Below, one piece after another: positions 4,265 through 57,236 of a stretch of 64,000 bases of DNA. The stretch's first letter is position 1. Each line of letters opens with the position of its first letter. Source of the stretch: Haloglomus litoreum (GTDB taxonomy: Archaea; Halobacteriota; Halobacteria; Halobacteriales; Haloarculaceae); NCBI RefSeq assembly GCF_029338515.1, contig NZ_CP119988.1, positions 1,302,001-1,366,000 of the forward strand, in the 5' to 3' direction. The position numbers were made by a program, and so were the translations under genes. The notes beneath the pieces were generated by a model. That model ran no database searches, was not told the origin of the DNA, and saw nothing but the letters and a program-made list of their open reading frames with translations.

Positions 4265-4399
4265 TCACGGCCCGACCACCACCGCGTGGCCACACCGGAG
4301 ACACCGGACGATGTCCACGCCGTCTCGCTCGACGATCTCCAGCAGCGCGTGGTGCTCACCCAGCTCGGCGACCGTCGTGAGGATGCGGTCGGGCGTCAT
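4265..4399 (-). CDS. Small CxxC protein, 44 residues
   Basis: A short frame starts at ATG 4399, ten bases after the stop of the beta-propeller gene, and ends VRCLRCGHAVVVGP. One CxxC with a following His suggests half of a zinc knuckle, perhaps completed by dimerisation. The sequence is acidic and idiomatic for haloarchaea (LTTVAELGEHHALLEIVERD). It is too short for family assignment. The close spacing makes it the probable last gene of the large operon. Confidence 0.55.
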   Translation of the reverse strand: MTPDRILTTVAELGEHHALLEIVERDGVDIVRCLRCGHAVVVGP

Positions 4400-4409
4400 C
4401 GGCCCAGCA

Positions 4410-7364
4410 TCAGGACCCACCACCCACGAGCGACTGGGCGCGCGAAACCGCCCCCGAGAGGGCCGAACTGATGCGGAAGTCGGTGAACCGGCGGACGAGC
4501 AGGTAGCCCACGCCAGCGGACAGGCCGATGCCGACGACCTGCTGCCCGGGCGTCGCACCGCCCGTGCCGACGCCGCCGCCACGGCCGCCGAGCGGCCCGC
4601 CCAGCAGCGACGACTGCTGGAGCGACTCGGTGTAGTTGAACGTCGTGCCGTTGGCCGTGTAGTTGCCCGTGAGCGCGCCGTCGGCCGCCTCCGAAGCGTT
4701 CCCGGTCACGGCGTCGGCCACACACCACGTCGCGTAGCCGGCGGCCGTGTCGAACTGCCGGTCGCCGCTGTACGAGCTGTCCCCGTGCGAGACGTTGAAC
4801 GTGAGGCTCGTCGTCTCGTAGGACGGGTCCCAGTACTCGATGAGGAGCCCGGTCGTGCCATCCGTGAGGACACACTCGCCGGCGATGCGCGGGCCAAAGC
4901 CGTCCGATGCGGTGTACGTCACTGTCGGGCCGGGCCCATCGTCACTGTCGCCGTCAGGGCAGGACTGGAGGTCCCCGTCGTTGTCCCGGTCGAAGGGGTC
5001 ACATGGTGGGTTGAGTCCATCGGGCCCGGAGACGCTCCCGCCGCTGGTCCCGCCATCGGTCGCGATGGGCGTGGCAGTCGGCGAGGTCGCCGTGCCGGTC
5101 GCGGTCGGCGTGGCCGTGCCGCCCTGGTCGCCGACGCTGATCAGGTAGGGGTCCGGCGCCGACTTGTTCGCGCGCCAGCCCAGCGACTCCCACCGTGTCG
5201 ACCGGCCGCCGCTGGTCGCGACGACCTCGACGCGGTACGGGTCGCCGTTCGCGAGCCGGACGCTCGCTTTGCCGTAGGCGTTGATGTCCTTCTGGGCAAT
5301 CTCGTTCCAGTCGCCGGGGCCGGCCGTGAACGTCGTGCCACCCGGCAGCGGGAACTCGATGGCGCGGTCGAAGCGGTAGACCGTCAGCTCCGACATCGAG
5401 GGTGGGTAGGTCTGCTTGGCGGCCTCGTCGAGCTGGAACTCGCGGACGAACGTCCCGCTCTCGAAGAGTGTCAGGTCAACAGTTCGCGGGGAGCCGCTGA
5501 CGGTGATGGATTTCGAGGCGTTCTGGTAGCCGTCGGCGCTCGCCTGGACCGTGTACTCGCCGTCCGAGACGGCAGAGAAGCTATAACTCCCGTCGCTTGT
5601 CGCCGTGGTAGCTTTGACCACCGAACCAGATTGTCGCAACTCGACGGTCGCATCATTAATGCCGGAGCCGTCGGCCGAGATTGTGCCGGAAACCTCTACA
5701 CCGAGACTGCCAGTTGCGCTGCCCGGGTGCCCCAGCGTCCGGAGCATCGCCCGCGTCCCCGACGAGTCCTTGGTATGGTCTGTGTCTAGCGCATAGACCG
5801 AGTTGTCCACACTCCCGACATAGACCGTCCCGCCCGCGACCGTCGGCGAGGAGTATACGGTGCTCCCAGTCGAGTAGGACCACTTCTCGTTGCCCGTCGA
5901 TGCGTCGAGCGCATAGATCGAGTTGTCGTTGCTCCCGATATAGACCGTCCCGCCCGCGACCGTCGGCGAGGAACGAAAGTCACCCCCCGTCGAGTACGAC
6001 CACTCCTCGTTGCCGGTCGATGCGTCGAGCGCATAGATCGAGTTGTCATCACTCCCGACATAGACCGTCCCGTCCGCGACCGTCGGCGAGGAGCGCACGA
6101 GGTTCCCGGTCGCGTATGACCACTCCTCGTTGCCCGTCGATGCGTCGAGCGCGTAGAGCGAGCCGTCGTTGCTCCCGACATAGACCGTCCCGTCGGATAC
6201 TGTCGGCGAGGAGCGCATGTAGCTCCCCGTCGTGTAGGACCACTCCTCCGTGCCGGTCGATGCGTCGATCGCACGGACTGTGCCGTCGCCGACCGCGACG
6301 TATACCGTCCCGCCCGCGACCGTCGGCGAGGGGTATAAGTCGCCCCCCGCTGCATACGACCACTCCTCGTTGCCCGTCGATGCGTCGAGCGCATAGACCG
6401 AGCCGTCGTTGCTCCCGACGTATACCGTCCCGTCCACGACCGTCGGCGAGGAACGAACGTAACTCCCCGTCGAGTAGGACCACTCCTCGTTGCCCGTCGA
6501 TGCGTCCAGCGCATAGACCGAGTTGTCGTAGCTCGCGACGTATACCGTCCCGTCCGCGACCGTCGGCGAGGAACGAATGTCGTCCCCCGTCGAGTACGAC
6601 CACTCCTCGTTACCCGTCGATGCGTCCAGCGCATGGACCGAGTTGTCGTAGCTCCCGACGTATACCGTCCCGTCCGCGACCGTCGGCGAGGAGTATACGT
6701 TGCTCCCTGTCTCGTACGACCACTCCACGTTCCCAGGCGCGACCGTGGTCGTATTGTCAGCGGCAACAGGTGTGGACCCAATGGCGACTGTGCCGGTGGC
6801 CGAGAGCATTACGAGCGCGACGGCACCTAGCGCCGCAGCCTGCTCCCGCTCGACAGCAGACAGCCGACTGGTAACTCCTCGACCGACCGAGACGAGCTCG
6901 TCGAGGACCAGCTGCGGGTCCGGCCGGACGACCAGGACCAGCGCCAGCAGCGCGACCGCCCCAGCCTCCTGGACGAGGACGGCCCAGCGCAGCGTCTCGG
7001 GCAGGCCCGCGGTCGCGATAGCGTAGACGTTCGCGAGCCCGTCGAGGGCGAGCGCGGACGAGACGAGCGCGCCCAGGTGCCAGTACTGCACGCGGTCACC
7101 GTGCGTCTGGTCGCGGGCGGCCGCGACGCGCAGCGCCCAGAATATCGTCGCGACCAGCAGCGGCGTCCCAGCTGCCCACGTCGCGAGTCCGAGATGCTCG
7201 ATCACGCCCGCGGAGACTGGGTTCACCTCGCGAGCCGCTGCGGCGCCGACCATCACGAGCGTCGTGACGACCGCCAGCCACGAGCCGAGATGGCCCGCTA
7301 TCTCCGCGAGTCGGAGTCGCTCCCGTTCGATTCCGTTACCGTCCGCGTGTTGGATGTCACTCAT
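4410..7364 (-). CDS. Membrane-anchored eight-bladed PQQ-like beta-propeller protein
   Basis: From ATG 7364 the product has 984 residues; the longer frame overlaps the upstream gene out of phase and is rejected. About four hydrophobic segments fill residues 25-160, with a fifth near 190. Residues of about 215-535 hold eight near-identical 40-residue PQQ/YVTN-type blades (SSPTV.DGTVYVGS and ALDASTGNEEWSY). A carboxypeptidase-regulatory-type beta-sandwich follows at about 555-625, then a beta-rich region, Thr/Pro linkers and a Ca-binding-like PFDRDNDGD. A last hydrophobic segment and a short basic tail end the protein. Most of it should lie outside the cell. It could be a receptor, an adhesin or a coat component; the sequence does not decide. 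Confidence 0.8.
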   Translation of the reverse strand: MSDIQHADGNGIERERLRLAEIAGHLGSWLAVVTTLVMVGAAAAREVNPVSAGVIEHLGLATWAAGTPLLVATIFWALRVAAARDQTHGDRVQYWHLGALVSSALALDGLANVYAIATAGLPETLRWAVLVQEAGAVALLALVLVVRPDPQLVLDELVSVGRGVTSRLSAVEREQAAALGAVALVMLSATGTVAIGSTPVAADNTTTVAPGNVEWSYETGSNVYSSPTVADGTVYVGSYDNSVHALDASTGNEEWSYSTGDDIRSSPTVADGTVYVASYDNSVYALDASTGNEEWSYSTGSYVRSSPTVVDGTVYVGSNDGSVYALDASTGNEEWSYAAGGDLYPSPTVAGGTVYVAVGDGTVRAIDASTGTEEWSYTTGSYMRSSPTVSDGTVYVGSNDGSLYALDASTGNEEWSYATGNLVRSSPTVADGTVYVGSDDNSIYALDASTGNEEWSYSTGGDFRSSPTVAGGTVYIGSNDNSIYALDASTGNEKWSYSTGSTVYSSPTVAGGTVYVGSVDNSVYALDTDHTKDSSGTRAMLRTLGHPGSATGSLGVEVSGTISADGSGINDATVELRQSGSVVKATTATSDGSYSFSAVSDGEYTVQASADGYQNASKSITVSGSPRTVDLTLFESGTFVREFQLDEAAKQTYPPSMSELTVYRFDRAIEFPLPGGTTFTAGPGDWNEIAQKDINAYGKASVRLANGDPYRVEVVATSGGRSTRWESLGWRANKSAPDPYLISVGDQGGTATPTATGTATSPTATPIATDGGTSGGSVSGPDGLNPPCDPFDRDNDGDLQSCPDGDSDDGPGPTVTYTASDGFGPRIAGECVLTDGTTGLLIEYWDPSYETTSLTFNVSHGDSSYSGDRQFDTAAGYATWCVADAVTGNASEAADGALTGNYTANGTTFNYTESLQQSSLLGGPLGGRGGGVGTGGATPGQQVVGIGLSAGVGYLLVRRFTDFRISSALSGAVSRAQSLVGGGS
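5785..6735 (-). repeat. Eight tandem ~120-bp repeats encoding propeller blades
   Basis: Eight direct repeats of 120 bp lie head to tail inside the propeller gene, each encoding one 40-residue blade. Conservation is visible at base level, for example CCGTCGATGCGTCGAGCGC recurring every 120 bases. Differences cluster at a few loop codons. Such similarity allows unequal recombination and blade-number change. Confidence 0.9.
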
Positions 7365-7371
7365 GGTTGTG

Positions 7372-7662
7372 TCAGAGGCCGCCCGCCAGCGAACCGAGCA
7401 GTTCCAGAAGCTGTGCGACCACTCCGCTATCGAGCGAGAGCGCGCCCGTCGCGATGCCCGCCACCGCCCCGATGGCGAGTACGCCAGCGACCACGCTCCC
7501 GATGCGGAGCCACCGCGCGCCACCGATGAGCAGCGATGAGAGTTCGCGGCTGTACCAGAGACCAGCCAGCAGCAGCGCCACCGCGCCGACCGAGACACCA
7601 CCGATGCCGAACTGGTCGAACAGGAATCCGACCGCGGCCTCCAGTAGCTCGACGACTACCAC
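7372..7662 (-). CDS. Small two-pass membrane protein
   Basis: The product has 96 residues with a GTG start at 7662, chosen because GAGGGGGGTG lies about eight bases upstream. A longer GTG-started frame reaches 7698. Two hydrophobic stretches (about residues 20-38 and 52-75), separated by a short basic loop, indicate a small helical membrane protein. The stop lies seven bases before the propeller gene, so it is in the same operon. No family is recognised. Confidence 0.65.
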   Translation of the reverse strand: MVVVELLEAAVGFLFDQFGIGGVSVGAVALLLAGLWYSRELSSLLIGGARWLRIGSVVAGVLAIGAVAGIATGALSLDSGVVAQLLELLGSLAGGL

Positions 7663-7776
7663 GAACCAGCACCCCCCTCGGGCTCCCAGGTTAACCACGC
7701 GCGCGTACGGGCCCTGTCAGTGAGCTGGTACGTGGCGCCCTGGCCTCGGCTGTTCAATCCGGGGGTGGCCGCGGCC

Positions 7777-9099
7777 TCAGAGCGCATCGAGCGCCACCTC
7801 GCGTTCCGGGTAGGAGATGGAGATCTCGCCCTCGAACCCGTAGGTTCGGTATGGGTTCGGCCACGAGATCGGGACGAAGTTCATCGAGTTCCACATCACC
7901 GCCTCGCCCTTGCTGAGACCCGAGCTGTAGTTCGGGTAGATGGGGATAGAATCGGGGAGGCCAGTCAGCGAACCCGAGGGGCGGGGCGTCTCGGGCATCG
8001 TCATCCAGAGCCGTTCCTTCTCCCGCACCGTCTCCTCGAACGTCGCCAGCGAGTGCGACATGAAGACACAGGAGAGGTTCTTCTTCCGGGCCTTGCCGAA
8101 CGCCTCGGCGAAGCCCTTCACCTTCGTCTTCGTGTCGTTGGCGTCGTTCTCCGGGCGGATGGGCAGCATGTCGCCCGCCTCGTCGATGACCGCCGTCGTC
8201 GGGTGCAGCGTCACGTCCTTCTTCGCGCGGGCGTGGACGAGCCCGTGCATCCACTCGACGAGGTCCGTGTTCTCCTCGGTGTCCTCGGCCTCCCACGCCG
8301 ATGTGAACGAGGCTTCGACGAGGCGCTCACACCCCCGGAACTTCGGATCCGGGAGCACGCCGTAGATGGCGCCCGGACAGGTCTGCTCCAGCAGGTCGAC
8401 CGGGTCCGTGTACGTCAGCGTATCACGGAACACGTCCGTCGGCTCGATGGCAACCCTGGGCAGGCGGTCGTCGCGAGGGACCGCCTCAACCGTCACCTCG
8501 ACACCGGCCGGCATCGCGAGCGTCGTGAACGGAGCGAGCGGGAGAATCTCGCACTCGTCCAGCGTGAGCTGCCAGAGGACGGTCTCGTTGTTGATCTCCG
8601 TCATCCGCGCGCCGGCCAGGAAGTTCGCCGCGCTCGTCTTGCCCTTCCCCGGCTTCGAGTGGGCGTGCCAGCCGATGCCGCCGTCGTCCATCGCGTCCAG
8701 CACCTCGCGATTCTCCGGTCGCGAGAGCCACTCCATCACGCGCTGGCGGGTCTCCGGTTCGTGGTCGAACCGGCTCAGGTCGCCCCGTTCCAGTGCCCAG
8801 ATGTCCGCGTCCGAGACGTGGATGAGTGCGTTCAGATACGCCGACGGGTAGCGGTACGCCGGGTGGTTCGACGTCTCGGCGCCTTCGAGCACCTTCCAGA
8901 ACGGCTTCGCACCGAAGTGCTGGTAGATGGACTCGCCGTCGTGGTGGCGATTGCCCTGTGCGTCGAGGCCGAACGTGCCGCCGCTGTCGTGGTAGTAGGC
9001 TTGCTTCGAATCGTCGTGCGACTCGAACTCCTGGCGGACCCACTCGCGAACCTCGTCGGGACCGCCGGTACTGTCGATCTGGGTGCGTGCGTGACTCAT
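7777..9099 (-). CDS. P-loop ATPase of the HerA/VirB4-like packaging/conjugation type
   Basis: The 440-residue protein has Walker A HSKPGKGKTS near residue 150 and a Walker B-like AVIDEAGD near residue 305. A 'CVFMSHS' strand near 345 fits sensor/motif III of FtsK/HerA-class ATPases. The first 140 residues are acidic and unassigned. It has no membrane segment and should act at the inner face of the membrane. As the only ATPase in an operon of membrane proteins, it is the likely motor for assembling something or moving DNA through that membrane complex. Pleolipoviruses also carry one ATPase of this size beside their membrane proteins; the comparison is inference. Confidence 0.75.
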   Translation of the reverse strand: MSHARTQIDSTGGPDEVREWVRQEFESHDDSKQAYYHDSGGTFGLDAQGNRHHDGESIYQHFGAKPFWKVLEGAETSNHPAYRYPSAYLNALIHVSDADIWALERGDLSRFDHEPETRQRVMEWLSRPENREVLDAMDDGGIGWHAHSKPGKGKTSAANFLAGARMTEINNETVLWQLTLDECEILPLAPFTTLAMPAGVEVTVEAVPRDDRLPRVAIEPTDVFRDTLTYTDPVDLLEQTCPGAIYGVLPDPKFRGCERLVEASFTSAWEAEDTEENTDLVEWMHGLVHARAKKDVTLHPTTAVIDEAGDMLPIRPENDANDTKTKVKGFAEAFGKARKKNLSCVFMSHSLATFEETVREKERLWMTMPETPRPSGSLTGLPDSIPIYPNYSSGLSKGEAVMWNSMNFVPISWPNPYRTYGFEGEISISYPEREVALDAL

Positions 9100-9101
9100 G
9101 G

Positions 9102-9821
9102 TCAGGTAGAGAGGGGGCCGTGGCTCTCGCTCACGGTCTCGACTGTTTCCTCGGCGCCCGCCTGGAGGGTGCGGACGCCGCGGTTCATGGCCGGCAGCAG
9201 CACCGTCGCGGCGAGATTCTCACGCGCCGTGCGGGCGGGCCCATCATCGGGCGGCGCGACTAGCGGGTCGTACCCCATCGGCGTGTAGCAGCAGTACTCC
9301 AGGAACGATGCCGGCAGGTGGCCCTCGGTAGCCGGCTGGAGGTCATGCACCCACAGCCGGATGGCCTCGCGGTCGGCGAAGCCGTCGAACAGCGCCAGCA
9401 GCGCCTCGCGTTGGGCGCTGTCGGTCGCCGACAACTCGGGCCGCATCGCGATGAACTTCTGGCGCTCCGGATCCGGCGTGCCGTCCTTCTCGTCGGTCTT
9501 CTCCGAGTCCGTGTACTCGTGAACGCGGTCCCGAACCCGGTGGAACGCGGTTCGGAACGCGCGGTGGAGCACCATGTCCCCCAACTGACCGCGCCGGAAC
9601 TGCTCCACCTCGCCGTCGCCGACGAGATCCTCGAGCACGTCGGGCCGCAGTGCCACCGCCCGGAACCAGTCGTCGGGCAGGTAGCCCAGCGACCGCACGG
9701 CGACCTGCTGGAGCCACAGGAGCACGTCCTCGCGGGTATCGAAGCCCGCATGGAGATGCTCGATACACTCGCGCTGGTCGGCGGCGAGCTTCCGGAGCGC
9801 CGGGCGTCGGCTCTCAGTCAT
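9102..9821 (-). CDS. Uncharacterised acidic cytoplasmic protein of the membrane operon
   Basis: Started at ATG 9821, which overlaps the upstream stop by eight bases, the product has 239 residues. It is soluble, helical and highly charged, without cysteines or P-loop motifs except CC near the C-terminus. No family is recognised. It lies between the large anchored protein and the ATPase, two bases from the ATPase gene, so a role as adaptor between motor and membrane complex is possible but unproven. Confidence 0.65.
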   Translation of the reverse strand: MTESRRPALRKLAADQRECIEHLHAGFDTREDVLLWLQQVAVRSLGYLPDDWFRAVALRPDVLEDLVGDGEVEQFRRGQLGDMVLHRAFRTAFHRVRDRVHEYTDSEKTDEKDGTPDPERQKFIAMRPELSATDSAQREALLALFDGFADREAIRLWVHDLQPATEGHLPASFLEYCCYTPMGYDPLVAPPDDGPARTARENLAATVLLPAMNRGVRTLQAGAEETVETVSESHGPLST

Positions 9822-11592
9822 CGGCCGGCACCTCCTCGTCGCTCGTCTCCGGCTCGGTGTCCTGGAACTCCTCGTAGACGTCATGCATCTCGCCGTTGAC
9901 GCCGGCCGAGTAGCCCCGCATCAGGCTCATCGCCTGCTTGATCGGCTGGACGCTGGCCTCGCCGAGCTTCTGCTCCATCTCCTCGAAGGTCTGCGCGTCC
10001 TCGGTCCCCTGCCGCATGGCCACCATCGAGGCGTGGACGCTTTCGAGATGGACCGGCGCGAAGTCCGCCCGCGCGTGGGCGTCATGCTTCGGGCCGAACA
10101 TGCCGACCAGTAGTGCCGTCGTGAGCGCCCCGACACCGACGAGCGGGCTCAGTGCGAGGCCGGCCAGCGCCCCAACGGCAGCAGCGCCGACACATGAGAC
10201 CAGGATACGGTCGACGTTCCAGGCGCGCTCGGTGACTGGCTCGCCGGCCTCGTCGAGCACCGTCTCGCCCTCGTCGGTCGTCTGGACCGTCGAGCGCTTC
10301 CAGGCGAACGTGAAGCCCTCGGGTTCGATATCGAGAAGCTGGTCGGCGTCGGGGGCGAGGTAGATCTTCTCGTCGACGCTGCCCTCGTCGACCTCGACCA
10401 TCGCCGCCCGCTCGTCGTAATTCAGGAAGGTCGCGGGCTGGCCGACCAACCGGGCCAGGAACCGGAGCGGGCCCGTTCCGACGACCGCGTAGCCGCCGTC
10501 CGGGAGCTTGACGACGCGCTTCGTCGTCTCTCGCTCACCGATACGGCCGACGACCTCCTCGCCGCGTGGCGAGGTGGCCTCTTCGACCTTCGGCTGGACG
10601 AAGCGGACGCGCTGGACGTTCTGCTGGAACGTCTCCAGCATGATGAGCCACGCCAGCACCAGCACCCAGAGCGCGATGGCCCACGGATTCGCGACGACGA
10701 AGTTCGCGATGCCGGCGTAATCGATGAACAGCGCCAGGCCGGTGGACACCGACCAGCCGATAATCCAGGGCGTGTACCCCCACTGCGGACCGACGCCGGC
10801 GATGGCCATCGCCTTCCGGATGGACCACCCGCCCGTGATGAGCCCGACCAGGAGGAGCCACCCGAAGTCGAAGATGACCGAGCGCAGGTAGTCGCCCTGC
10901 GAGTCGATGCCCGCCGACTGGGTGGTCGCGACCGAGTGATGGCCGAAGACCCACCGCGTCTCCGGGTTGTCGGCCAGCCACATCGTCACGCGGACTGGGT
11001 CCTCGTGACGCTGCAGCGGGACCTCGATGGTCGGCCGGCCGCGCTGGTACTCCAGGGTCTGCGTGTGGGCGCTGACGTTGGCCGCGTACCGGACCGACTC
11101 CGTAGAGTTGCCCCGTTGGACGGTCTTCGTCCTGGGCTCCCAGTAGGCGATCTTCAGGTCCGCCGAGCCGGACTCGAGGGCGAACGTCCGGAGGTAGACC
11201 TCGTTCTTCTTGACCGTCTGCATCCCCTGGGCGCCGACGTACTTCCAGTTCGAGTTGTCGGGGGCGCCGCCGCTCCCGGCCGGCCACGCAATCAGCCACC
11301 AGAACCGCTCGTCGGCGAGCCGGAGGCTCTGGGCATCCGCGGCGACCGGCTGGCCGCCACGGGACAGCTCCTCGATGGTGGGACCGTCGGACTCAGATTG
11401 GCCCCCGCCCCGGTTCGTCTCGGGCGTCGGCGTCGCCGTCGACGCTGGACTCGCGGTTGGGGTCGAGGTCGCTGGCGTCGCGGTCGGCGTCGACGTGTTC
11501 CGGTCCTCCTGCGGGGCGGCGACGGCGACCGCCGGCGCGACCGACGCGATGAGTGCGAGTGCGGCCAGCGCCGCAGCGACGCGGGCTCGCAC
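9814..11592 (-). CDS. Large secreted/anchored membrane protein with Thr/Pro stalk
   Basis: GTG 11592, two bases after the upstream stop, gives 592 residues. A signal peptide (about residues 1-26) is followed by a Thr/Pro/Ser-rich stretch to about 60. A globular extracellular part to about 235 is rich in Trp and Tyr. Two or three membrane helices lie at about 240-320, an intracellular beta-rich domain at about 330-435, another hydrophobic hairpin at about 455-495, and then an acidic helical tail. The family is unknown. The topology, with a sizeable domain on each side of the membrane, suits a scaffold joining the exterior to the cytoplasmic ATPase; this is inference. Confidence 0.7.
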   Translation of the reverse strand: MRARVAAALAALALIASVAPAVAVAAPQEDRNTSTPTATPATSTPTASPASTATPTPETNRGGGQSESDGPTIEELSRGGQPVAADAQSLRLADERFWWLIAWPAGSGGAPDNSNWKYVGAQGMQTVKKNEVYLRTFALESGSADLKIAYWEPRTKTVQRGNSTESVRYAANVSAHTQTLEYQRGRPTIEVPLQRHEDPVRVTMWLADNPETRWVFGHHSVATTQSAGIDSQGDYLRSVIFDFGWLLLVGLITGGWSIRKAMAIAGVGPQWGYTPWIIGWSVSTGLALFIDYAGIANFVVANPWAIALWVLVLAWLIMLETFQQNVQRVRFVQPKVEEATSPRGEEVVGRIGERETTKRVVKLPDGGYAVVGTGPLRFLARLVGQPATFLNYDERAAMVEVDEGSVDEKIYLAPDADQLLDIEPEGFTFAWKRSTVQTTDEGETVLDEAGEPVTERAWNVDRILVSCVGAAAVGALAGLALSPLVGVGALTTALLVGMFGPKHDAHARADFAPVHLESVHASMVAMRQGTEDAQTFEEMEQKLGEASVQPIKQAMSLMRGYSAGVNGEMHDVYEEFQDTEPETSDEEVPADD

Positions 11593-11594
11593 GG

Positions 11595-11738
11595 TCAGTA
11601 GGCCCCCGTGATGGCCGCCATGAGGCCCGACACCAGCGACTCGACGGCCTCTGGTGCCACGACGACCGCCGTCAGTACCGCGCCGACGATGGTCAGCAGC
11701 ACCGCCGCTCGCGTGTCGATCTGGATAAACGTCGCCAT
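11595..11738 (-). CDS. 47-residue single-pass membrane peptide
   Basis: ATG 11738 abuts the upstream stop in a TGATG arrangement and the frame ends two bases before the next GTG start. The translation (MATFIQIDTRAAVLLTIVGA...) is a short cytoplasmic end, one long hydrophobic helix with two Pro/Glu breaks and a short tail. It is far shorter than the open frame around it, whose upstream part is an Arg-rich shadow. It could be a pilin-like or holin-size subunit. Confidence 0.65.
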   Translation of the reverse strand: MATFIQIDTRAAVLLTIVGAVLTAVVVAPEAVESLVSGLMAAITGAY

Positions 11739-12304
11739 CAGTCGCCAGCACCCCCGTTGGGCGGGCTTGGCTGCGTGCCGTCGATACTGGATGGCGGGTC
11801 GGCTGCCGCCGACCGTGTCACCGAGACCTCCCGTACCGCGGGGTCGGCCTCCTCTGGCCACGTCCACGGCTCGGGGGCTGAGCGACCGTACCGCTGCGCT
11901 GCTGGTGTCGCCTCGGCCGCTGAGGGCTGGCCGAGGATGGACATGATCCACTGGCCGTCTCGTGTCGGGCCCCGCCAGCGGTCCGTTGCGCGTCGGCAGC
12001 GCCGGCACTCGTGGACGTGCGCCGGCGTCCCTTTGCACAGCGTCGTGTCGATCATGAGGCCGAAGCCGACGAGCCCGCCGACGGCGAGGGCGAGTCCGGC
12101 GACCGGTGAGTTGCCGCGGACGCCCAGCGCACCGGCGTAGATGGTCACTGCTGCCAGGAGGAGGTACGTCGCGACCGGAGCGAGGTGTCCGGTCTCGCGG
12201 AGCGCCTCGATAGCGCCCCACGACCGGTCCCAGTCCCGCTCACGAAGCTCCTGTTCGAACGCCGCCGGCACGGCCAGACCAGCGTACTGCGTGCCGTGCG
12301 TCAC
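11738..12304 (-). CDS. Two-pass membrane protein with Cys-rich segment
   Basis: GTG 12304 overlaps the preceding stop by four bases (GTGA). The product has 188 residues with two hydrophobic segments at about 43-60 and 65-85. These are followed by C...HECRRCRR, a potential metal site, and then a Pro/Ala/Glu-rich tail. It is probably a structural membrane subunit of the operon. No family is recognised. Confidence 0.65.
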   Translation of the reverse strand: MTHGTQYAGLAVPAAFEQELRERDWDRSWGAIEALRETGHLAPVATYLLLAAVTIYAGALGVRGNSPVAGLALAVGGLVGFGLMIDTTLCKGTPAHVHECRRCRRATDRWRGPTRDGQWIMSILGQPSAAEATPAAQRYGRSAPEPWTWPEEADPAVREVSVTRSAAADPPSSIDGTQPSPPNGGAGD

Positions 12305-12615
12305 GACTCACGCACCTCCACGATGCCGATGGCCGCAACCAGCGCCAGCGGGATGAGTGCCAGCGCCGGTTGGTCCATGATCTCCGGCGAGAGGGACAGT
12401 ATCCATCCGCCGGCGACGAACGCCGCCGCGGCCACGCCCGTCACGAGGAAGGAGACGTAGCCCTGGCGGCCACCGTACGAGAGCGCGATGCTGGGGTCCT
12501 CGTCCCTCCCGGCGACCGCCCGCCGGTAGGTGTACAGGAGCAGCACTCCCGTTGTGACGAGTGCGATGCCGTACCGCGCGCCATCGACCACGGCTGGGAG
12601 CTGGTCAAGAGGCAT
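12301..12615 (-). CDS. Three-pass small membrane protein
   Basis: The product has 104 residues with hydrophobic segments at about 13-30, 53-73 and 83-98, and a short charged loop (RRAVAGRDEDP) after the first. Both ends overlap neighbouring genes by 4-11 bases, which marks it as an operon member. The family is not recognised. Confidence 0.7.
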   Translation of the reverse strand: MPLDQLPAVVDGARYGIALVTTGVLLLYTYRRAVAGRDEDPSIALSYGGRQGYVSFLVTGVAAAAFVAGGWILSLSPEIMDQPALALIPLALVAAIGIVEVRES

Positions 12616-13024
12616 CGCCGTACACCTCCGAGAGCAGGAAGGTCCCGGCGACCGCCATCAGCGCAATGCCGACGTACTGGTCGACGGTCAGCCGGATGGT
12701 CCCCGAGAGCACGCCGGCCCCGAGCCCGATGCCGGCGAGATTCGAGACGATGAACGGATGGCTACCGATGAACTGGGTGAGCATCGCGACGATGTCGACG
12801 CCCTGGATGATGGCGATGCCACCAGCCGTGATGACGCCGCCAGCGATCATCCCGAGCCACCGAGCGGTTCGGTTGGTTGCCCACTCGAACCGGTCGTCCG
12901 TTGACTCGGGGGCGTTCAGGTACGCCGCGATGTACCGGGCTGCCAGCACCAGGATGGCGCCGCCAAAGATGACGATCAGCAGCGTCACCGCGTCCGTCAC
13001 CTGAATGCCGAAGAGTTCGGCCAT
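12605..13024 (-). CDS. Multi-pass small membrane protein
   Basis: The start is placed at ATG 13024 (MAELFGIQVTDAVTLLIV), giving 139 residues; the longer frame adds an implausible basic leader. There are three to four hydrophobic segments with a charged loop (NAPESTDDRFEWATNRTAR) after the first. The helices are rich in Gly, Ala and Ile, as in its neighbours. No known family is recognised. Confidence 0.7.
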   Translation of the reverse strand: MAELFGIQVTDAVTLLIVIFGGAILVLAARYIAAYLNAPESTDDRFEWATNRTARWLGMIAGGVITAGGIAIIQGVDIVAMLTQFIGSHPFIVSNLAGIGLGAGVLSGTIRLTVDQYVGIALMAVAGTFLLSEVYGDAS

Positions 13025-13097
13025 CAGGTGCCACCTCCGTTGGTTCGGCCGCGCAGAACGGCCGGCGATGCCTCCGGTCGTGAAGTTGTGATGTGTC

Positions 13098-13394
13098 TCA
13101 TCGGTCGTTGAGCCAGGTTTCCGCACGGTCCTTGAGCCGATCCAGCTGCACTGCGACGAAGATGATAGCCGCGCCGAGCAGCGCGGGGCCACCGTACTGG
13201 CCCAGCCCGACTCGCGGGAAGATCTCGCCCGCGCTCACCGCGATGGCCGGGAACCAGTACCCGGACGTAGCCGAGATGAGCGTCCAGACCGGCTCGAACC
13301 AGCCGAAGCTTAGCCCACCCAGCAGGCTCACGAACGCCGAGAGCTGCGTGATAGGGTGGAAGACGGCCTCTTTCGCTTGTTGTGGAACTGTCAT
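13098..13394 (-). CDS. Small membrane protein, 98 residues
   Basis: MTVPQQAKEAVFHPITQ is followed by two or three hydrophobic segments and an amphipathic charged C-terminus (VQLDRLKDRAETWLNDR). The start overlaps the upstream stop by four bases. It is a structural operon member of unknown family. Confidence 0.7.
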   Translation of the reverse strand: MTVPQQAKEAVFHPITQLSAFVSLLGGLSFGWFEPVWTLISATSGYWFPAIAVSAGEIFPRVGLGQYGGPALLGAAIIFVAVQLDRLKDRAETWLNDR

Positions 13395-13864
13395 CGTCCG
13401 AGAAGTGCCATGATGCTGCTGCCGCCCGGGACCAGCGCCAGCCCGGCCACGGTGACTCGATACAGGACGAACAGCGTCACGCCCGCCGCCGCCATCGCGA
13501 CCAGTGGTCCGGCCGGGCCCGCGCTCTCGACCACGGCGACCAGTGACTGTTGGAGCCCGCGCAGCGCGCCGAGGAGGTCGAACCCGACGAACGCGAACGC
13601 GACCACGAGTTGGCGCTGCACCCAGGCCAGCCCGCCGACCAACAGATCGAACGGGAACAGCACCGCGCCGATGAGGAACTCGAAGAACCCGAAGAGCACG
13701 GACACGACGAAGCCCGAAACCACCGAGATGACCAGCGCCGCCGGATTGCTCGCGAAGCGCCGCAGGAAGCGGGCGGTGCCGCTGCTGAACTGCTTCGCGA
13801 CTTCCGTCGAGGTCCCGAGGCCGGGGCCGATGGGAATCAGCGTGATACCGTCGTCGTCAGGCAC
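13391..13864 (-). CDS. Multi-pass membrane protein, 157 residues
   Basis: An acidic start (MPDDDGITLIP) and a basic amphipathic stretch near 30-38 (ARFLRRFA) precede three to four hydrophobic segments between 43 and 150. The gene overlaps both neighbours (eight and four bases). The helix-loop pattern resembles the next two proteins (116 and 153 residues), so the three may be distant paralogues; this rests on visual similarity only. Confidence 0.7.
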   Translation of the reverse strand: MPDDDGITLIPIGPGLGTSTEVAKQFSSGTARFLRRFASNPAALVISVVSGFVVSVLFGFFEFLIGAVLFPFDLLVGGLAWVQRQLVVAFAFVGFDLLGALRGLQQSLVAVVESAGPAGPLVAMAAAGVTLFVLYRVTVAGLALVPGGSSIMALLGR

Positions 13865-14207
13865 GACTGATCACCCAGCGGAAAACGAACACGGCCGTCA
13901 GTCCGATGCCGATGGCTACGACGAGGCTGGCCGGGCCGGCCTCGAGGACGAACATCCAGGCTGCCAGGAAGCCCTCCTGGACCAGGACGCCAGGCAGCCC
14001 GACGAGCAGGCTGACGACGCTCGCGAGGAAGTTGCCGAAGCCGGCCAGTAACGCGAGCGGGACATCGAAGATACCCAGCACCAGGCTGGCCACGCCAGTC
14101 AGGAAGGCCCCGAACGTGGCGCCGATGCCGACCTGTGCGATGCGGCCGAAATCGGGCGTCTGGAAGCCGTTCGGGCCCACACTGAGGAAGTCGCTGACCC
14201 TAACCAC
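13857..14207 (-). CDS. Multi-pass membrane protein, about 116 residues
   Basis: GTG 14207 is chosen because GGGGGTGG lies seven to eight bases upstream; a TTG at 14213 in the same frame is the alternative. Three long hydrophobic stretches rich in Gly, Val and Leu cover most of the protein. It overlaps the next gene by eight bases. No family is recognised. Confidence 0.65.
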   Translation of the reverse strand: MVRVSDFLSVGPNGFQTPDFGRIAQVGIGATFGAFLTGVASLVLGIFDVPLALLAGFGNFLASVVSLLVGLPGVLVQEGFLAAWMFVLEAGPASLVVAIGIGLTAVFVFRWVISRA

Positions 14208-14273
14208 GACCAACCACCCCCGGTTCGCGGGCCGTCATCATCCGGTCGGCACGAGCGGTGGTCGAACGCATCG

Positions 14274-14735
14274 TCACTCCTCCTGTGCCTCCTCGGCGTC
14301 CTCCGCGCCGGGTGTGGGGATATCCAGGCCGCTCCCCACCAGCGGGAAGAAGTTCGTCGTCTCTTCCTCGCTCACGAACGCGATGATGACGTAGCCGCTC
14401 AGCGCGACGATGCCGAACGCGATGGGCAGTGAGAGCGGACTCGCGAACAGGCCGCCGGGGCCGATCGAACGGGCGCTCCCGATGGCCCCGAAGTCGATGA
14501 CGATGCCGAACGATGCCAGGAAGGACTCGGTCAGGCCCGCGGCGCCACTGGCGAACGCCGCCATCGGCTTGATGAAGACGTCCGCGAGCGTGAGAATGCC
14601 CGACGCCAGCGCGCCGCCGATGGCCAGCAGGATGGCGCTTAGGCCCTGGAAGATGACGCCGCCGATGCTTCCGGCGTTCTTCGCCCGGTCGAACAGCCGC
14701 CGGACCCGTGGCCCGCCTGCGCCGGACGCCGACAT
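14274..14735 (-). CDS. Three-pass membrane protein with acidic tail
   Basis: The 153-residue product has a basic N-terminus (PRVRRLFDRAKNAG) and three hydrophobic regions at about 24-52, 60-85 and 100-122. The tail is strongly acidic (EDAEEAQEE). By charge the N-terminus should be inside. It follows the large secreted protein gene by two bases. Confidence 0.7.
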   Translation of the reverse strand: MSASGAGGPRVRRLFDRAKNAGSIGGVIFQGLSAILLAIGGALASGILTLADVFIKPMAAFASGAAGLTESFLASFGIVIDFGAIGSARSIGPGGLFASPLSLPIAFGIVALSGYVIIAFVSEEETTNFFPLVGSGLDIPTPGAEDAEEAQEE

Positions 14736-14737
14736 CG

Positions 14738-16303
14738 TCAGCTCCCGCCTCCGAAGATCTTCCCGAGGCCGAGCGCGGTGATGGCCGCGCCGATGAGGCC
14801 GGTGATCTTCCCGAGCGTCGTGCTCAGGAACCCGCCGGACTTCCCTGTCGGGCCGCCGGCGACGGTGCCGCCCTCCTGGAACACCGCGTCAGCCTCGGAG
14901 CTCGTGTAGACGATCTCCATCCCGACCGCGGCGTCGTGGTCGCTGGACGCCGAGATGTCCGTCGCGAGTTCGACGCGATCACCGATGGCACCGTTGAACT
15001 GGCTGGTGGCGCCGGTCGTCGATGCCTCGGAGTAGTTGCCGGCGTAGCCGGTGGCGTAGTCGACGCTGATGTACTGGCTGCCAGGCTGGCGCTGCTCGGC
15101 CACGAGGTCGAGCGTGCCGTGGGTCACGTCGACCGGTGCCGGGATGTCCCAGACCGCGAGCGGCTGGCCCTCCAGCCGGTCGGAGTAGCTGGCGTAGTCC
15201 TCGGCGTCGGTCATGGTGACGTTCGAGCCGTCAGCCATCGAGAGCGGGTAGTTGACCGTCGCGTCACCCGCCCCGACGACGAGGTCGTGGACGTGGGCGT
15301 CGCCCCAGTGGTCCGCGAGCCCGTCGAGTGAGCGGAAGCGGACGGTGCCGCCGTCGACGTTCGTTCGGGTCTCGGTCTCGTAGCGGTCGTCCGAGTCGGC
15401 CTGATACGCGACCGTGCCGAAGGCCATCGTCTCCTTCGCGGAGACATCCATCCCGGTCAGGGCGAGGTCAGCGTCGGCGTCGGTGACGTTGAGTCGGACC
15501 GTGTCGATCTCCGACAGCGTCCCGTCGCCCGTGCCCTGGACCCCGTTGGCTGAGACCAGCGTGTCCACACGCGTGCTCGCGTAGAAGGCGCCGGTCTCGT
15601 TCGCGAAGGTCTCCTCATCCGCGTCGGCCGCGCTCTCGGCGATGGTCGCATACGCGTAGTCACCGTCCGTGTCGACGATCTCGACGCGGACGGTCGCGCC
15701 GCTGTCGAGCGTGTTCAGCTCGCCCGCCATCGTGACGACGCGCTTGCGGGCGTCGTCGAGCGAGACGTTGTCGCTGTAGCTGAAGAGCACCGTGTCGCCG
15801 GCGGTCATGCTGCCGTCGGTCGCCAGCTGCGTCGGCGCCGCGCGGACGTTGGGCGCGCTGCCCCACTCCGAGACGCTGCCCTTGGCCGACGCCGAGCCGC
15901 TGACCGACCAATCGCCCTCCTCGGCGACGAACGACTGGCCCTCGACGTTGGCCTCGTCGTCGGTGACGGGGCCGTAGAGGTCCGGGTCGTCGATGTACGC
16001 CGGCGACACCTCGATGGGCGCGTCGGCGTCCGAGGTGTTCACCTCGGCCGGGAGGTCGGTGTTGCTGCCGTCATCAGCTTCGTAGGCGAGCGGGTCGGTG
16101 CCGTGCTCGCCCATGCGATGCTCGGCGATGGTCACGTCGGTCTCTTCCACCCAGACGCGCGGGCTCTCGTCGCTGGTCGTATCGATGGGTGGGGCACCGT
16201 TCTCGCGTTCGTCGTGGTCGGCCATCGCGACCGGCGCGACCATCGCGGTCGCGAGGAGGATGGCGATCAGCGCGATGAAGCCCTGCTGGACGAGCCGTCT
16301 CAT
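14738..16303 (-). CDS. Secreted, C-terminally anchored surface protein (spike-like)
   Basis: The 521-residue protein has a signal peptide (MRRLVQQGFIALIAILLATA, cleavage near MADHD). A large acidic beta-rich ectodomain with many Asn/Thr/Ser positions follows, and then a C-terminal hydrophobic segment (about 490-515) flanked by GGF and GGGS. This size and topology match the spike proteins of pleolipoviruses and other archaeal surface spikes, but no sequence signature was recognised, so the match is architectural only. It is the second gene of the operon, overlapping the first by four bases. It would be the main surface-exposed component of whatever the operon builds. Confidence 0.7.
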   Translation of the reverse strand: MRRLVQQGFIALIAILLATAMVAPVAMADHDERENGAPPIDTTSDESPRVWVEETDVTIAEHRMGEHGTDPLAYEADDGSNTDLPAEVNTSDADAPIEVSPAYIDDPDLYGPVTDDEANVEGQSFVAEEGDWSVSGSASAKGSVSEWGSAPNVRAAPTQLATDGSMTAGDTVLFSYSDNVSLDDARKRVVTMAGELNTLDSGATVRVEIVDTDGDYAYATIAESAADADEETFANETGAFYASTRVDTLVSANGVQGTGDGTLSEIDTVRLNVTDADADLALTGMDVSAKETMAFGTVAYQADSDDRYETETRTNVDGGTVRFRSLDGLADHWGDAHVHDLVVGAGDATVNYPLSMADGSNVTMTDAEDYASYSDRLEGQPLAVWDIPAPVDVTHGTLDLVAEQRQPGSQYISVDYATGYAGNYSEASTTGATSQFNGAIGDRVELATDISASSDHDAAVGMEIVYTSSEADAVFQEGGTVAGGPTGKSGGFLSTTLGKITGLIGAAITALGLGKIFGGGS

Positions 16304-16485
16304 CGGCGCTCCTCCACGTCGAACACCGCCTCGATGAGCTCGGGGTCGACCGACGCGAGGTCGCCGACCTCAAGCGTCGAGGCGATGTCGGCCTGCGCTG
16401 TCATGGAATCAGTACTACTGGGTCGTGCCTCCCCGGAAAAGGAGGTCGACGGGGGCTCTCGCCGTCCGTCTGGGGTTGCGCTCAT
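16300..16485 (-). CDS. Small acidic protein at operon head
   Basis: ATG 16485 (MSATPDGRREPP) gives 61 residues, ending with an acidic helical segment (LASVDPELIEAVFDVEERR). Its stop overlaps the start of the surface-protein gene by four bases (ATGA), the strongest sign that it is real. No motif is recognised. As the first gene of the operon, it may be regulatory. Confidence 0.55.
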   Translation of the reverse strand: MSATPDGRREPPSTSFSGEARPSSTDSMTAQADIASTLEVGDLASVDPELIEAVFDVEERR

Positions 16486-20977: not shown

Positions 20978-21039
20978 TCGCGCCCTGTATGCAGCACGTG
21001 CTCGACAAACTATCAGCGGCGGAGGGTTTCAACAAGGCC
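20978..21039 (+). repeat. Dispersed ~60-bp repeat, copy R2
   Basis: Well-preserved copy (CGCGCCCTGTATGCAGCAC ... GAGGGTTTCAACAAGGCC). It overlaps the 3' end of the integrase gene, whose last residues (GLVETLRR) are encoded by the repeat end. R3, in the opposite orientation, lies just beyond the integrase start, so the integrase is bracketed by inverted copies. Confidence 0.75.
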
Positions 21040-21630
21040 GTTCCCCATCACCTCACCAATCCGTGTCTCGGTCGCCTCCATTAGATATGGCTCGATGGCC
21101 GAGTAATCACTCCACCCGCCGATGGACATCATGGTCCGTACATCTCGCCCCTTTTCGACGAGGTGGTAGGTCGCGAACGAGCGCCGGAGATCGTGACTGG
21201 TCACCGACCGCCAGCGCTCCTCGCCCAGCTGGTCGGCGATGGCGTCGGCCGCGGCGTCGACCCATCGGCGCACGGTCGGCGTCGAGCGCGGGACCCACGG
21301 GTCGGTTCGGTCGAGGTCACGTTCCCGTGTGTACTTGTTCAGATCCTCGGCCACCCGGTCGGGCATCCAGGCGTCACGCAGCTTCCGGTCGCCGCCCTCA
21401 GTGTTCTTGCCGCGGATCTCGAAGAGCCAGCATTCACCTTCCTCACTCCACCGGAGGTGCTTGTCGGCTGGATAGGGCACCTCGTGAGCCCGGAGGCCGC
21501 ACCGCCCCATCAGCTGGACCGCGACCTCACGCATCCAGTCCTCGCGACCAGCTTCCCGTTCGAGCCGGGAGAGTTCGTCCTGATCGAGCCAGCACTTCGT
21601 CACATCGCCGGAGTCGTCGACGCGAACCAT
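21013..21630 (-). CDS. Tyrosine recombinase/integrase, catalytic domain
   Basis: ATG 21630 (MVRVDDSG) gives 205 residues; the upstream extension to 21696 is not typical. The catalytic set is visible: GRCGLRAHE (Arg I), SHDLRRSFATY (H-x-x-R), GGWSD and a Tyr in AIEPYL. A haloarchaeal SAM-like N-terminal core-binding domain seems mostly absent, so this is either a short integrase or a truncated one. Its C-terminus is supplied by repeat R2. A decayed relative lies at 38455-38745 and gives the same segments in the same order. It probably mediated site-specific integration of part of this region. Confidence 0.8.
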   Translation of the reverse strand: MVRVDDSGDVTKCWLDQDELSRLEREAGREDWMREVAVQLMGRCGLRAHEVPYPADKHLRWSEEGECWLFEIRGKNTEGGDRKLRDAWMPDRVAEDLNKYTRERDLDRTDPWVPRSTPTVRRWVDAAADAIADQLGEERWRSVTSHDLRRSFATYHLVEKGRDVRTMMSIGGWSDYSAIEPYLMEATETRIGEVMGNGLVETLRR

Positions 21631-21803
21631 AAGCGGATTGTCCAGACTACTCCGGCACAAACACTGGGGTCGGTGTAGTGATCTGGGCCGATTCACCCCC
21701 GAATGGCCCCCTTCGTGAGCGGGTAGTTGAAGAACTCGTTCACTGGTGGGGTGTCCGACCTTCCTCGCAGTTTAGCGCTGATTGTGTCTCAATTCGGCTA
21801 GAA

Positions 21804-33947: not shown

Positions 33948-34035
33948 CAGCAGCTTCGCGCTCCTCTCGTTCCATTCCAGTGTCGGCTGAGCATGTCCGA
34001 CACTTTATCAGGGACCAGTCCGCCGCACAAGCCAT

Positions 34036-34683: not shown

Positions 34684-34891
34684 TACGCTCATTGAGGTTT
34701 ATCTTCGAGACTCAGGGCCTTCTGAAGTCGATCAGGATCGAGAGAGGCATCCAGTCCTCCTGGATTGAGCGTTTCCCGCTTGTATGCGATCACTATGTGT
34801 CAGCTACTTCGCAATGCTCCCAGAGTACCTGCTACCGCCGCAAGGGGAGATCATGACCGGTTTTATTGTAACTTGAGGCATTCTGCCGGTA

Positions 34892-37009: not shown

Positions 37010-37014
37010 CAAGA

Positions 37015-41744: not shown

Positions 41745-43850
41745 TCAATACGTCCGAAGACTCGCATCCGAGCGGTCCGCCAGGTACGCCTCAATATCTG
41801 ATTCCCGCCATCCCGTCGGGGAGAGGACACTCTCAGCTGCTCGGAGTAGTCGTTCCCGGTAGAACGAGGCATCATATGCGGTCTCGGCAGTGACTTCGAA
41901 CGCCAACCGAACTCGATCGCGCGAATGTGTCGCGTCGTTGGCGACGAGGTACTCGATGGATTCGCCCGGATGGACGCCGATACCCTGAGACTCAGCGCGC
42001 CGCAACGCCGATACCGACCGCGTGCGCTGCTCGTACTCCTCGAGCGGTTTCGAGACTCGCTGGGTGATGAGCAGTTCTCTCGCGTCGACTGCGCCCCGGT
42101 TGAGTTCATCCAGCCGTCGTTGGAGAATGTCGCACACCGCCTGCGGCTCACGGTGTTCCGAGTACGTCTGGATAAATCCACGTTGCACGCGGTCGACGTA
42201 CGCTGAGGTGGAGCGCTGTCGACACTCGATGCCGCGATACTTGTAGCGATCGTTGATACCTGCCTCTTTGCCGAAGTACTTCGTGAGCGCGCCCGCATCC
42301 GAGGTCCGCTGTGGAACGAACGCGATCCAGTCGTACGCCGCCTCGTGTTCGAGGTCGATTGCAATTGCCTCGCTGACTGTCTCGCAAACTTCTTCGAGCG
42401 GTGTCTGCTCGCGGTCGGCCATCGCGGTCACCCAAAGGCTGTCGACGATGCCGTGGACCACACGCCAGCCGTTCGCTTCGAGGAGCTCCTTCGCGTCGAG
42501 GAGGATCTCCCGGGCGACCGCATTGATCGCCTCGTGGCACTCGATACGACCGAACTTGGCGTTGCTGAACCCCTGGTACCCGAAGCAGGAGACGAGGATC
42601 CACTTCAGTGCCGCCGAGCGTCCCTGAAGCGCCTGCTCTCGCTCGAGGTCATCGACGGTCTGTAGTTCGGCCTTGATCGCGGCCCGGTCGTCGATAATCG
42701 GCTTTAGCACATCCGCGAGATAGCCCCGTTCGTCGCAGATCGAATAGTCCAGCCCTGGCACGTCGTCGCTGGTGTGACAGTCACAGCAGACCGTCTCCGG
42801 GCTGATGTTCCGTGTCACCATGATATTCGGATACATCGACGAGAAATCGAGTTCGTGGACGTCCTCGTGGATGCCGACCTCGGGCTCGAAGGTGAACCCG
42901 CCGCGGTCGGCCTCGTGGAGCGTGCGCATCGATTTGAAGAATTCATGTCGCCAGGAGTTCCACGGCACGCGGACGTCCCGCTCGCGCGCCTCGCGAATCT
43001 GGATGGCGGTGAGGATATTCCCGATGGAGGCCCAGCCGAGCTCCTGGAGTGGCTTCCCCGAGCGCTCGACGAGATCGAGACAGCCCGCCAGATTCGTCTC
43101 CGACCACATGAACGAGTGTTGCTCGTTGATGAGAACCCGTCCGGGGACGGAATAGCGGGCTGGTGAGTGGCCGACCTGTCCGTAGCTCGTATAGGTCGAC
43201 CGCCCCGCTCGTTGCTGGTAGCCCGGGCGCCGCCCCAGCTGGAACGACCGATTGCAGACACGGTCGGCCAGCTCGAACAGTCGGGGGACGAGCGCTGCTG
43301 CACTCACGACCAGAATATCCGGGTCGGTCCGGTGGAGGCGTCGGGTAACCGTCTCGATGATGGTGTCGGGGCCCTCAATCACCTGCTCGCCGACGGTCAG
43401 CCGTGGCAACGGGTTGGTCGCCAGGTCGGCCTCGGTCGCGGCCAGCCGGAGGCATTCGAGCTCGCGGGTCTCGGTGGGCGTCGGCTCGGTCCCCGTCTCC
43501 AGACAGTAGCGGAACTCCGGCGAGAGGTCCACGTCGAACAACCGGTAGGCGCCTGGCCGGTCCCACTGTTGGATCTGTCGGGCTACGTCGGTAATCGCTC
43601 CAACGTCGGTCACATCGACGCGGAGCATCGGGGCGGCCTCGTGCCGGAAGCCCGGACGGTGGTGGGTACGGGCGGTCGCTGCAACTTGCGGGTGAGTGCG
43701 AAGATGCGGCCGGATATCGTCTAGGGATCCGCCCTCAGCGTGGACACAGATCGTGGGCGTGTAGTCGGCAACCCGTTCGGCGGTCACGCCGTCGGGGGTG
43801 ACCCGCCAGACCAGCACCGCTCCGTCCTGAAAGTCAATCTTCAGAACCAT
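41745..43850 (-). CDS. polB: B-family DNA polymerase (short, plasmid-type)
   Basis: ATG 43850 gives 701 residues. Motif A is DFSSMYPNIM (about 331), motif B is KWILVSCFGYQGFSNAKFG (about 412) and motif C is HGIVDSLWV (about 465). Motif C keeps the second Asp (VDS) but lacks the first Asp of the usual DTDS. No clear 3'-5' exonuclease DxE motif was found in the first 300 residues, and the protein is about 100 residues shorter than chromosomal PolB. It probably serves replication or repair of this element. The gene is last in a three-gene operon with overlapping starts (17 and 14 bases). Confidence 0.85.
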   Translation of the reverse strand: MVLKIDFQDGAVLVWRVTPDGVTAERVADYTPTICVHAEGGSLDDIRPHLRTHPQVAATARTHHRPGFRHEAAPMLRVDVTDVGAITDVARQIQQWDRPGAYRLFDVDLSPEFRYCLETGTEPTPTETRELECLRLAATEADLATNPLPRLTVGEQVIEGPDTIIETVTRRLHRTDPDILVVSAAALVPRLFELADRVCNRSFQLGRRPGYQQRAGRSTYTSYGQVGHSPARYSVPGRVLINEQHSFMWSETNLAGCLDLVERSGKPLQELGWASIGNILTAIQIREARERDVRVPWNSWRHEFFKSMRTLHEADRGGFTFEPEVGIHEDVHELDFSSMYPNIMVTRNISPETVCCDCHTSDDVPGLDYSICDERGYLADVLKPIIDDRAAIKAELQTVDDLEREQALQGRSAALKWILVSCFGYQGFSNAKFGRIECHEAINAVAREILLDAKELLEANGWRVVHGIVDSLWVTAMADREQTPLEEVCETVSEAIAIDLEHEAAYDWIAFVPQRTSDAGALTKYFGKEAGINDRYKYRGIECRQRSTSAYVDRVQRGFIQTYSEHREPQAVCDILQRRLDELNRGAVDARELLITQRVSKPLEEYEQRTRSVSALRRAESQGIGVHPGESIEYLVANDATHSRDRVRLAFEVTAETAYDASFYRERLLRAAESVLSPTGWRESDIEAYLADRSDASLRTY

Positions 43851-44115
43851 CCTCACCGTGGACCGCTTCCAGGGCGGTGAGCTGCTCTTCGAGGGTTGCG
43901 ATGCGAGCTTGCTGGGCCAGCAGCATCGAGAGGAAGACGGGGAACAGCGGTTCGTCATGATTGAGATAGCCGGCGGCATCGGCGTGCTGTCGGGCGTCCG
44001 CCCACAGCTGGTCGTAGTGGCCCTGCTCCCGGCGGCGGAGCCCCCTTCGATACGGCTGCCAGCGCTCCTCCAGCCCGCGGAGGCGGTCACGGTACGTCGG
44101 ATTAGTACGCCCCAA
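43834..44115 (-). CDS. Small conserved haloarchaeal protein upstream of polB (DUF8156-like)
   Basis: The 93-residue protein reads MGRTNPTYRDRLRGLEERWQ, then HADAAGYLNHDEPLFPVFLS, then a short coiled coil (ARIATLEEQLTAL). The layout matches a small family found beside replication genes in haloarchaea, which I recall as DUF8156; the number is uncertain. It overlaps polB by 17 bases and the RecA-fold gene by 14. A polymerase accessory role is inferred from this coupling. Confidence 0.7.
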   Translation of the reverse strand: MGRTNPTYRDRLRGLEERWQPYRRGLRRREQGHYDQLWADARQHADAAGYLNHDEPLFPVFLSMLLAQQARIATLEEQLTALEAVHGEDGSED

Positions 44116-57173: not shown

Positions 57174-57236
57174 GTGGTCCTCGCGGCGCGAGGCAGGGAT
57201 GGTGTTGAGACCGGGATGCCGCGTAACCCAGAACTG

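Follow-up and report, generated by a model that had tools for sequence, protein, structure and literature searches.

A conserved membrane-protein operon at the core of a haloarchaeal integrative plasmid family, a candidate module for capsid-less dissemination

A compact operon occupies positions 16485 to 4265 of the 64,000-nucleotide stretch of Haloglomus litoreum DNA analysed here (the window). ORF calls and inspection of start sites gave 15 minus-strand genes and, ahead of them, one small gene, with junctions ranging from −11 to about +110 bp, most of them overlaps of 1–11 bases or genes that simply touch. An earlier note on this DNA had described a compact membrane-protein operon of about 15 minus-strand genes that encode a spike-like protein, nine small membrane proteins, a hairpin protein, one ATPase, and a propeller protein; the gene calls bear out the operon, and each of these parts is present. 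Searches of Pfam, PHROGs, and NCBIfam recovered no family of known function among the module proteins, except for domains in the 984-aa protein. As for the regulators said to flank the operon, the AbrB-like call has no Pfam match, and the other regulator carries a DUF7344 domain.

The operon is headed by g67 (16300..16485, minus strand, as for every operon gene given below), which encodes a small acidic soluble protein with a 64% identical counterpart in element B, a second element of the same genome; among the loci compared, no relatives were found outside elements A and B. The spike gene (14738..16303) encodes 521 aa comprising a signal peptide, an ectodomain of about 440 aa, a GGG-rich linker, and a hydrophobic C-terminus resembling a weak anchor, and the protein has no family match in Pfam, PHROG, NCBIfam, or the PDB. 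Three integral membrane proteins stand in tandem behind it: T1 (g153, 14274..14735), T2 (g118, 13857..14213), and T3 (g157, 13391..13864). Alignment of their position-specific profiles with hhalign gave probabilities of 97.7% for T1-T2, 89.8% for T2-T3, and 75.0% for T1-T3, against at most 11% for the unrelated small membrane families used as a control. On this profile evidence, T1, T2, and T3 are ancient paralogues; the count of nine small membrane proteins thus stands, yet three of the nine appear to descend from one tandem family. Also encoded are g98, a small conserved membrane protein (13098..13394), the four-pass g137 (139 aa, 12605..13024), the membrane protein g104 (12301..12615), the two-pass g188 with its cytoplasmic-looking tail (11738..12304), the hydrophobic 47-aa g47 (11595..11738), called as an ORF and copied in element B, and g108 (96–108 aa, 7372..7662).

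BIG (9814..11592, 592 aa) combines a signal peptide and a beta-rich ectodomain with two hairpin regions in the membrane and with cytoplasmic domains, although its structural model is of low confidence overall. Between BIG and the ATPase lies g260 (9102..9821), a soluble protein of 239 aa. The P-loop ATPase (7777..9099, 440 aa) is devoid of membrane segments and possesses a GKT Walker A and a DEAGD Walker B motif. Profile searches of the PDB returned HerA chains at a sub-significant E = 0.04–0.07, and the match to Zot was likewise sub-significant (E 0.1 for the window ATPase, 0.0098 for the best family member). AlphaFold models built from six sequences each were poor, with a pLDDT of 35 for the ATPase and 38 for BIG. 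Because the superfamily signals (HerA-, FtsK-, or Zot-like) are all sub-significant, the HerA/VirB4-like label previously attached to this enzyme is a lead rather than a result; the P-loop motifs are present, and a HerA/VirB4-like ATPase is plausible.

The large surface protein (4410..7364, 984 aa) consists of an N-terminal membrane block, an outer domain, a CarboxypepD_reg domain, and a C-terminal anchor, with Pfam recognizing a PQQ/BamB-type beta-propeller in addition to CarboxypepD_reg. The element A and element B versions agree in the N-terminal membrane block and the CarboxypepD domain, and their C-termini are 84% identical. Their outer domains differ, being a PQQ propeller in element A and lectin-like in element B, where "lectin-like" is a reading from sequence that has no Pfam match. 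Across loci, the slot after the ATPase is occupied by a surface protein of 600–1540 aa, in most cases with a signal peptide, an ectodomain, and several (3–5) C-terminal membrane helices; the window holds the propeller type. That the outer domain is swapped and the remainder of the protein conserved points to a role in recognizing targets. A 44-aa CxxC protein (4265..4399), 93% identical in element B, ends the operon. Directly after it in element A, window positions 2736–4169 encode a secreted, lipoprotein-like protein with metallo-beta-lactamase and Lamin Tail Domain, which is absent from element B.

The window belongs to element A, a 99,739-bp unit present as two identical tandem copies (C1:1185736-1385227). 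Three copies of a 14-bp att repeat, CCCCCTACCGGCTT, bound it, the first of them being the 3′ terminus of a tRNA-Thr(CGT) gene. Some 50 bp separate the att repeat from the end of a tyrosine integrase gene, the arrangement of a tRNA-targeting integrative element. When same-genus genomes were probed for the empty site, the tRNA-Thr gene and left flank were found conserved at 85–89%, and the right flank had no match. Element B, of about 42.4 kb, is inserted at tRNA-Val(GAC), likewise as two tandem copies (99.99% identical; C1:3229934-3314715) and with its own end integrase. One host genome therefore carries the same operon on both elements, with four copies of the module ATPase in all. Besides the operon, A and B share a resolvase, a second tyrosine recombinase that lies beside the module in both (21013..21696, minus strand; PF00589; 84% nucleotide identity to the element B copy), and little else. 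Element A further encodes a family B DNA polymerase (PolB; 41745..44147, minus strand; PF00136) and two Orc1/Cdc6 replication initiators recognized by Cdc6_lid (44965..45969, minus strand; 46606..47610, plus strand). The tandem arrays may be real, or integrated and circular forms may have been mixed in the assembly; excision or circular intermediates are implied in both cases.

To place the operon among other haloarchaea, relatives of the ATPase were retrieved by profile from 70 of 392 haloarchaeal genomes, distributed over 24 of 86 genera, and synteny was counted over 46 non-redundant loci. The recurring order is spike, three tandem T paralogues, g98, g137, BIG, g260, ATPase, large surface protein, and g108. 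BIG and g260 each occur in 44 of the 46 loci, the T family (usually as three copies in a row) and g98 in 43, the spike and g137 in 34, and g108 in 24, with order and strand constant; g104 and g188 are confined to 10 and 6 loci, respectively. The synteny check proposed in the earlier note thus came out clearly, with an order kept in some 46 non-redundant loci, far beyond chance. Several loci harbor an MCM helicase inside the operon. In a phylum-wide sample of 197 genomes, BIG was found only in genomes of the window's order, all of them haloarchaea, and in the BIG tree the host families are interleaved, with 13 family-label changes against a minimum of 5.

The module also resides on free replicons. 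Haloarcula marismortui pNG300, a free circular plasmid of 39.5 kb whose sequence has been public for years, encodes T proteins, g98, BIG, g260, the ATPase, and g108, and the module is found on a Haloarcula taiwanensis plasmid as well. A Halosegnis marinus plasmid (NZ_CP119803; L001, L002) bears two diverged copies, one adjoining PolB and Cdc6. The spike and small membrane protein genes of these copies are identical, and BIG and the downstream genes have diverged, which suggests that two related plasmids fused into a co-integrate or that the module recombined internally. In L093 and L001, BIG is divided between two ORFs, possibly a decaying or a naturally split copy. The ATPase alone, with the other module genes absent, occurs on pNG100 and in Haloarcula sp. 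GH36 (L004 19285-20832, L003 14638-15888).

Absence of the operon as a mobile unit elsewhere had been named as an outcome that would tell against the original proposal. The operon is a mobile unit in other genomes too, and it is linked to replication genes, as seen from tRNA integration, free plasmids, PolB, and the two Orc1/Cdc6 proteins. From element to element the module persists and the remainder varies. The elements integrate at tRNA genes, occur in tandem arrays and as free plasmids, and bring their own replication genes. They constitute a widespread, self-inserting plasmid family of haloarchaea with the operon as its common core, and neither the family nor the module is described in the part of the literature covered by our search. 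Phage records and IMG/VR contained no module member, and therefore no particle-fraction sequence of the module in those sets.

Three capsid-less or membrane-bound systems have a comparable layout. The pR1SE-type plasmids (apHPV, PMC10818511), which are transferred in vesicles, are likewise integrating haloarchaeal plasmids with syntenic signal-peptide surface proteins, small membrane proteins, and a protein combining signal peptide, beta region, and membrane hairpin, followed by an ATPase, with MCM or Orc1 nearby; about half of them have a WD40-bearing large protein with a variable part, which can be likened to the large surface protein of the module. The pT26-2 family (PMC6972569) comprises tRNA-integrating plasmids with about 12 mostly membrane proteins and one ATPase, in addition to a carboxypeptidase-regulatory surface protein and MCM (pMEFER01), and its conserved block has been proposed to be a DNA/protein transfer system. 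Pleolipoviridae (HRPV-1, HRPV-2, and His2) share a spike, small membrane proteins, and one ATPase, and His2 also carries PolB, but their genomes of 7–16 kb compare with module elements of 40–100 kb.

Families were rebuilt for eight pR1SE-type proteins (ORF8, 9, 17, and 21-25; 21–25 sequences each), nine conserved pT26-2 proteins (two or three members each), and five pleolipovirus proteins. Positive controls performed well under hhalign, with 99.9% for the HRPV-1 and His2 spikes, 98.2% for the ATPases, and 98.9–99.9% for module subfamilies. With these working controls, no homology was detected between the module families and those of the three systems. The best match of the ATPase reached 24.8%, in the P-loop region only; g260, T, g98, g137, and g108 scored near zero, and BIG and the spike matched through signal peptides only. 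Module HMMs at E 0.01 likewise found nothing in pR1SE, pHTUR05, the pT26-2-family plasmids (L169, L174, L175), or pleolipoviruses. The spike had been a candidate relative of pR1SE ORF9 at 88.6%, a value that fell to 7.6% once the signal peptide was removed; one column-shuffle control in this test gave a high value that is unexplained and was left out.

Membership of each system was assessed in the same terms. The order of the genes, with a surface protein ahead of small membrane proteins, a hairpin protein, and an ATPase, made a pR1SE-type plasmid likely, and all profile tests spoke against it: where at least five of ORF6, 8, 17, 21, 23, and 24 are expected to match by profile, only signal peptides did among the families compared (ORF8, 17, 21, 23, and 24 of these six). 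The module differs further in its three paralogous T proteins and in an ATPase, g260, BIG, spike, and T that lack homology to ORF25/24/23/22/21/17/9/8, and Pfam found no peptidase family in the window operon corresponding to the S8 subtilisin-like protease ORF7. Against the pT26-2 core proteins t26-5, 6, 7, 11, 13, 14, and 15, hhalign reached at most 21.8%, in the P-loop only, and that family has another gene order and inhabits Thermococcales and Methanococcales. No homology to the pleolipovirus VP4-type spike, VP3, ORF6, ORF7, or ATPase exceeded 24.8%, in the P-loop motif region. The view that pR1SE and pleolipoviruses are the nearest concepts therefore survives as a likeness of layout, and homology to VP3/VP4/VP8 or the pR1SE core proteins was not borne out by hhalign or HMMs. 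As judged by profiles, the module resembles all three systems in plan and not in sequence, much as pT26-2 and pR1SE are alike in plan without direct sequence conservation (PMC6972569). Homology of the module to known systems may lie below the reach of profiles. Such a relationship, visible by fold, has reportedly been found between pR1SE ORF25 and t26-14p.

By analogy with these systems, we give an even chance to the reading that the operon is the conserved core, or dissemination module, of haloarchaeal integrative plasmids, whose products would form a capsid-less apparatus moving the element between cells. T1–T3, g98, and g137 would form a membrane scaffold, BIG would link the outside to the cytoplasm, and g260 and the ATPase would load or pump the double-stranded DNA of the element. 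Recognition of the target cell would fall to the spike and to the large surface protein, whose propeller or lectin-like domain is exchangeable. Budding of membrane vesicles or particles that carry the spike, the route of pR1SE and the pleolipoviruses, would be a slightly better fit than a pore at cell contacts, since neither a relaxase nor a coupling protein was seen and the best analogues with data bud membrane particles. Both DNA transfer by the module and the vesicle format are inferred.

The strongest rival, improbable in our estimate yet a real contender, is a contact-dependent conduit. Here T1–T3, g98, and g137 would make up the pore, BIG would cross the envelope, and the ATPase would pump dsDNA from cell to cell in the style of FtsK-like TraB or the crenarchaeal Ced importer, with the spike and the large protein serving as adhesins for mating. 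The many small multi-pass proteins and the three paralogues are well suited to a pore of hetero-oligomeric type, an ATPase is present without a capsid, the swap of outer domains is adhesin-like, and haloarchaea are known to mate through bridges of fused membrane (discussed in PMC9259645). Type IV secretion, conjugation, and crenarchaeal Ced systems also combine small membrane proteins with a motor ATPase. Yet the coupling protein PF02534 is absent from the whole host genome, a Pfam scan revealed no VirB4, VirD4, or relaxase family in the module proteins, and PDB searches, which were not exhaustive, produced no profile link to VirB or Ced. Homologues in a known secretion or respiratory complex, also named beforehand as contrary evidence, were not found, and family searches agreed with the earlier note in recognizing no capsid, terminase, or relaxase in the operon.

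The elements encoding the fusexin Fsx1 (PMC9259645) invite comparison here, being haloarchaeal, integrated, larger than 50 kb, and equipped with XerC/D recombinases, HerA-type ATPases, and a large ectodomain protein with several C-terminal membrane segments. Unlike the module, they carry VirB4 and TraG/VirD4 homologues. The layout of the large surface protein suggested a fusexin, and neither its profile nor that of the spike matched Fsx1 (7P4L) in PDB searches; the fusexin-bearing elements could nonetheless overlap with the module family.

A surface or secretion system for cell-cell conflict, recognition, or superinfection exclusion, which would benefit host and element instead of transferring DNA, seems unlikely to us. 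The variable surface domains, the defence cargo of the elements, and the persistence of the operon in chromosomally integrated copies would suit it; across the 46 loci, however, the module has no conserved gene for a toxin, for immunity, or for a nuclease, and it usually sits on mobile elements that replicate and retains a motor ATPase and, in many cases, MCM. Proviruses of an unrecognized family with an undetected capsid are a very improbable source, for although the spike-like protein, tRNA integration, and PolB all have parallels among archaeal viruses (spike, ATPase, and PolB occur together in His2), ten module proteins have no PHROG match, no phage or IMG/VR relative, terminase, or capsid family was found, and pleolipovirus homology was absent under controls scoring 98–99.9%.

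The dissemination reading can be taken further, if tentatively and with a little less than even confidence: the operon would be a third, independently evolved machinery for capsid-less plasmid spread, unrelated in sequence to pR1SE and pT26-2, built on a three-paralogue scaffold with swappable recognition domains, and moving defence-bearing elements of 40–100 kb. The module is commoner than the pR1SE type in the same hosts (70 vs 27 of 392 genomes, with one genome, G009, on both lists). Gene exchange among haloarchaea is frequent, and its machinery is mostly unknown. Present on integrative elements in roughly one sixth of the sampled haloarchaeal genomes, crossing host families, and accompanied here by defence genes, the module has a strong claim to be a main route of transfer, and its recurrence in several cultured species makes the question directly testable. 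The operon probably lets these plasmids pass from cell to cell with no viral shell, and a capsid-less self-transfer module of a third kind, beside pR1SE and pT26-2, is the most likely identity. If so, archaea would have at least three unrelated solutions on one plan, in which surface proteins and small membrane proteins are joined by a single ATPase.

Several further genes were observed on the elements. DndF- and DndH-like genes of phosphorothioate restriction lie on element A to the left of the window (G000:C1:1190927-1200097; PADLOC E 5e-37 and 2e-94). Further probable defence cargo lies at window positions 28454–38376 and 52409–59891, where a PD-(D/E)XK nuclease and a UvrD helicase are accompanied by a possible McrB/McrC-like pair and by an SNF2/HKD helicase with a type IIG restriction-methyltransferase-like protein. 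On element B, three tandem type IV pilin genes (G000:C1:3237170-3238876; Pilin_N confirmed for one) are near the operon yet outside it. In many loci, and in element B as well, DUF7845 proteins of 550–680 aa, some with a winged-helix part, are encoded near the module on the other strand (for example L053 14070-16037, L086 14874-16535, and L013 7130-9166); they are candidates for a replication initiator or regulator of the plasmid family.
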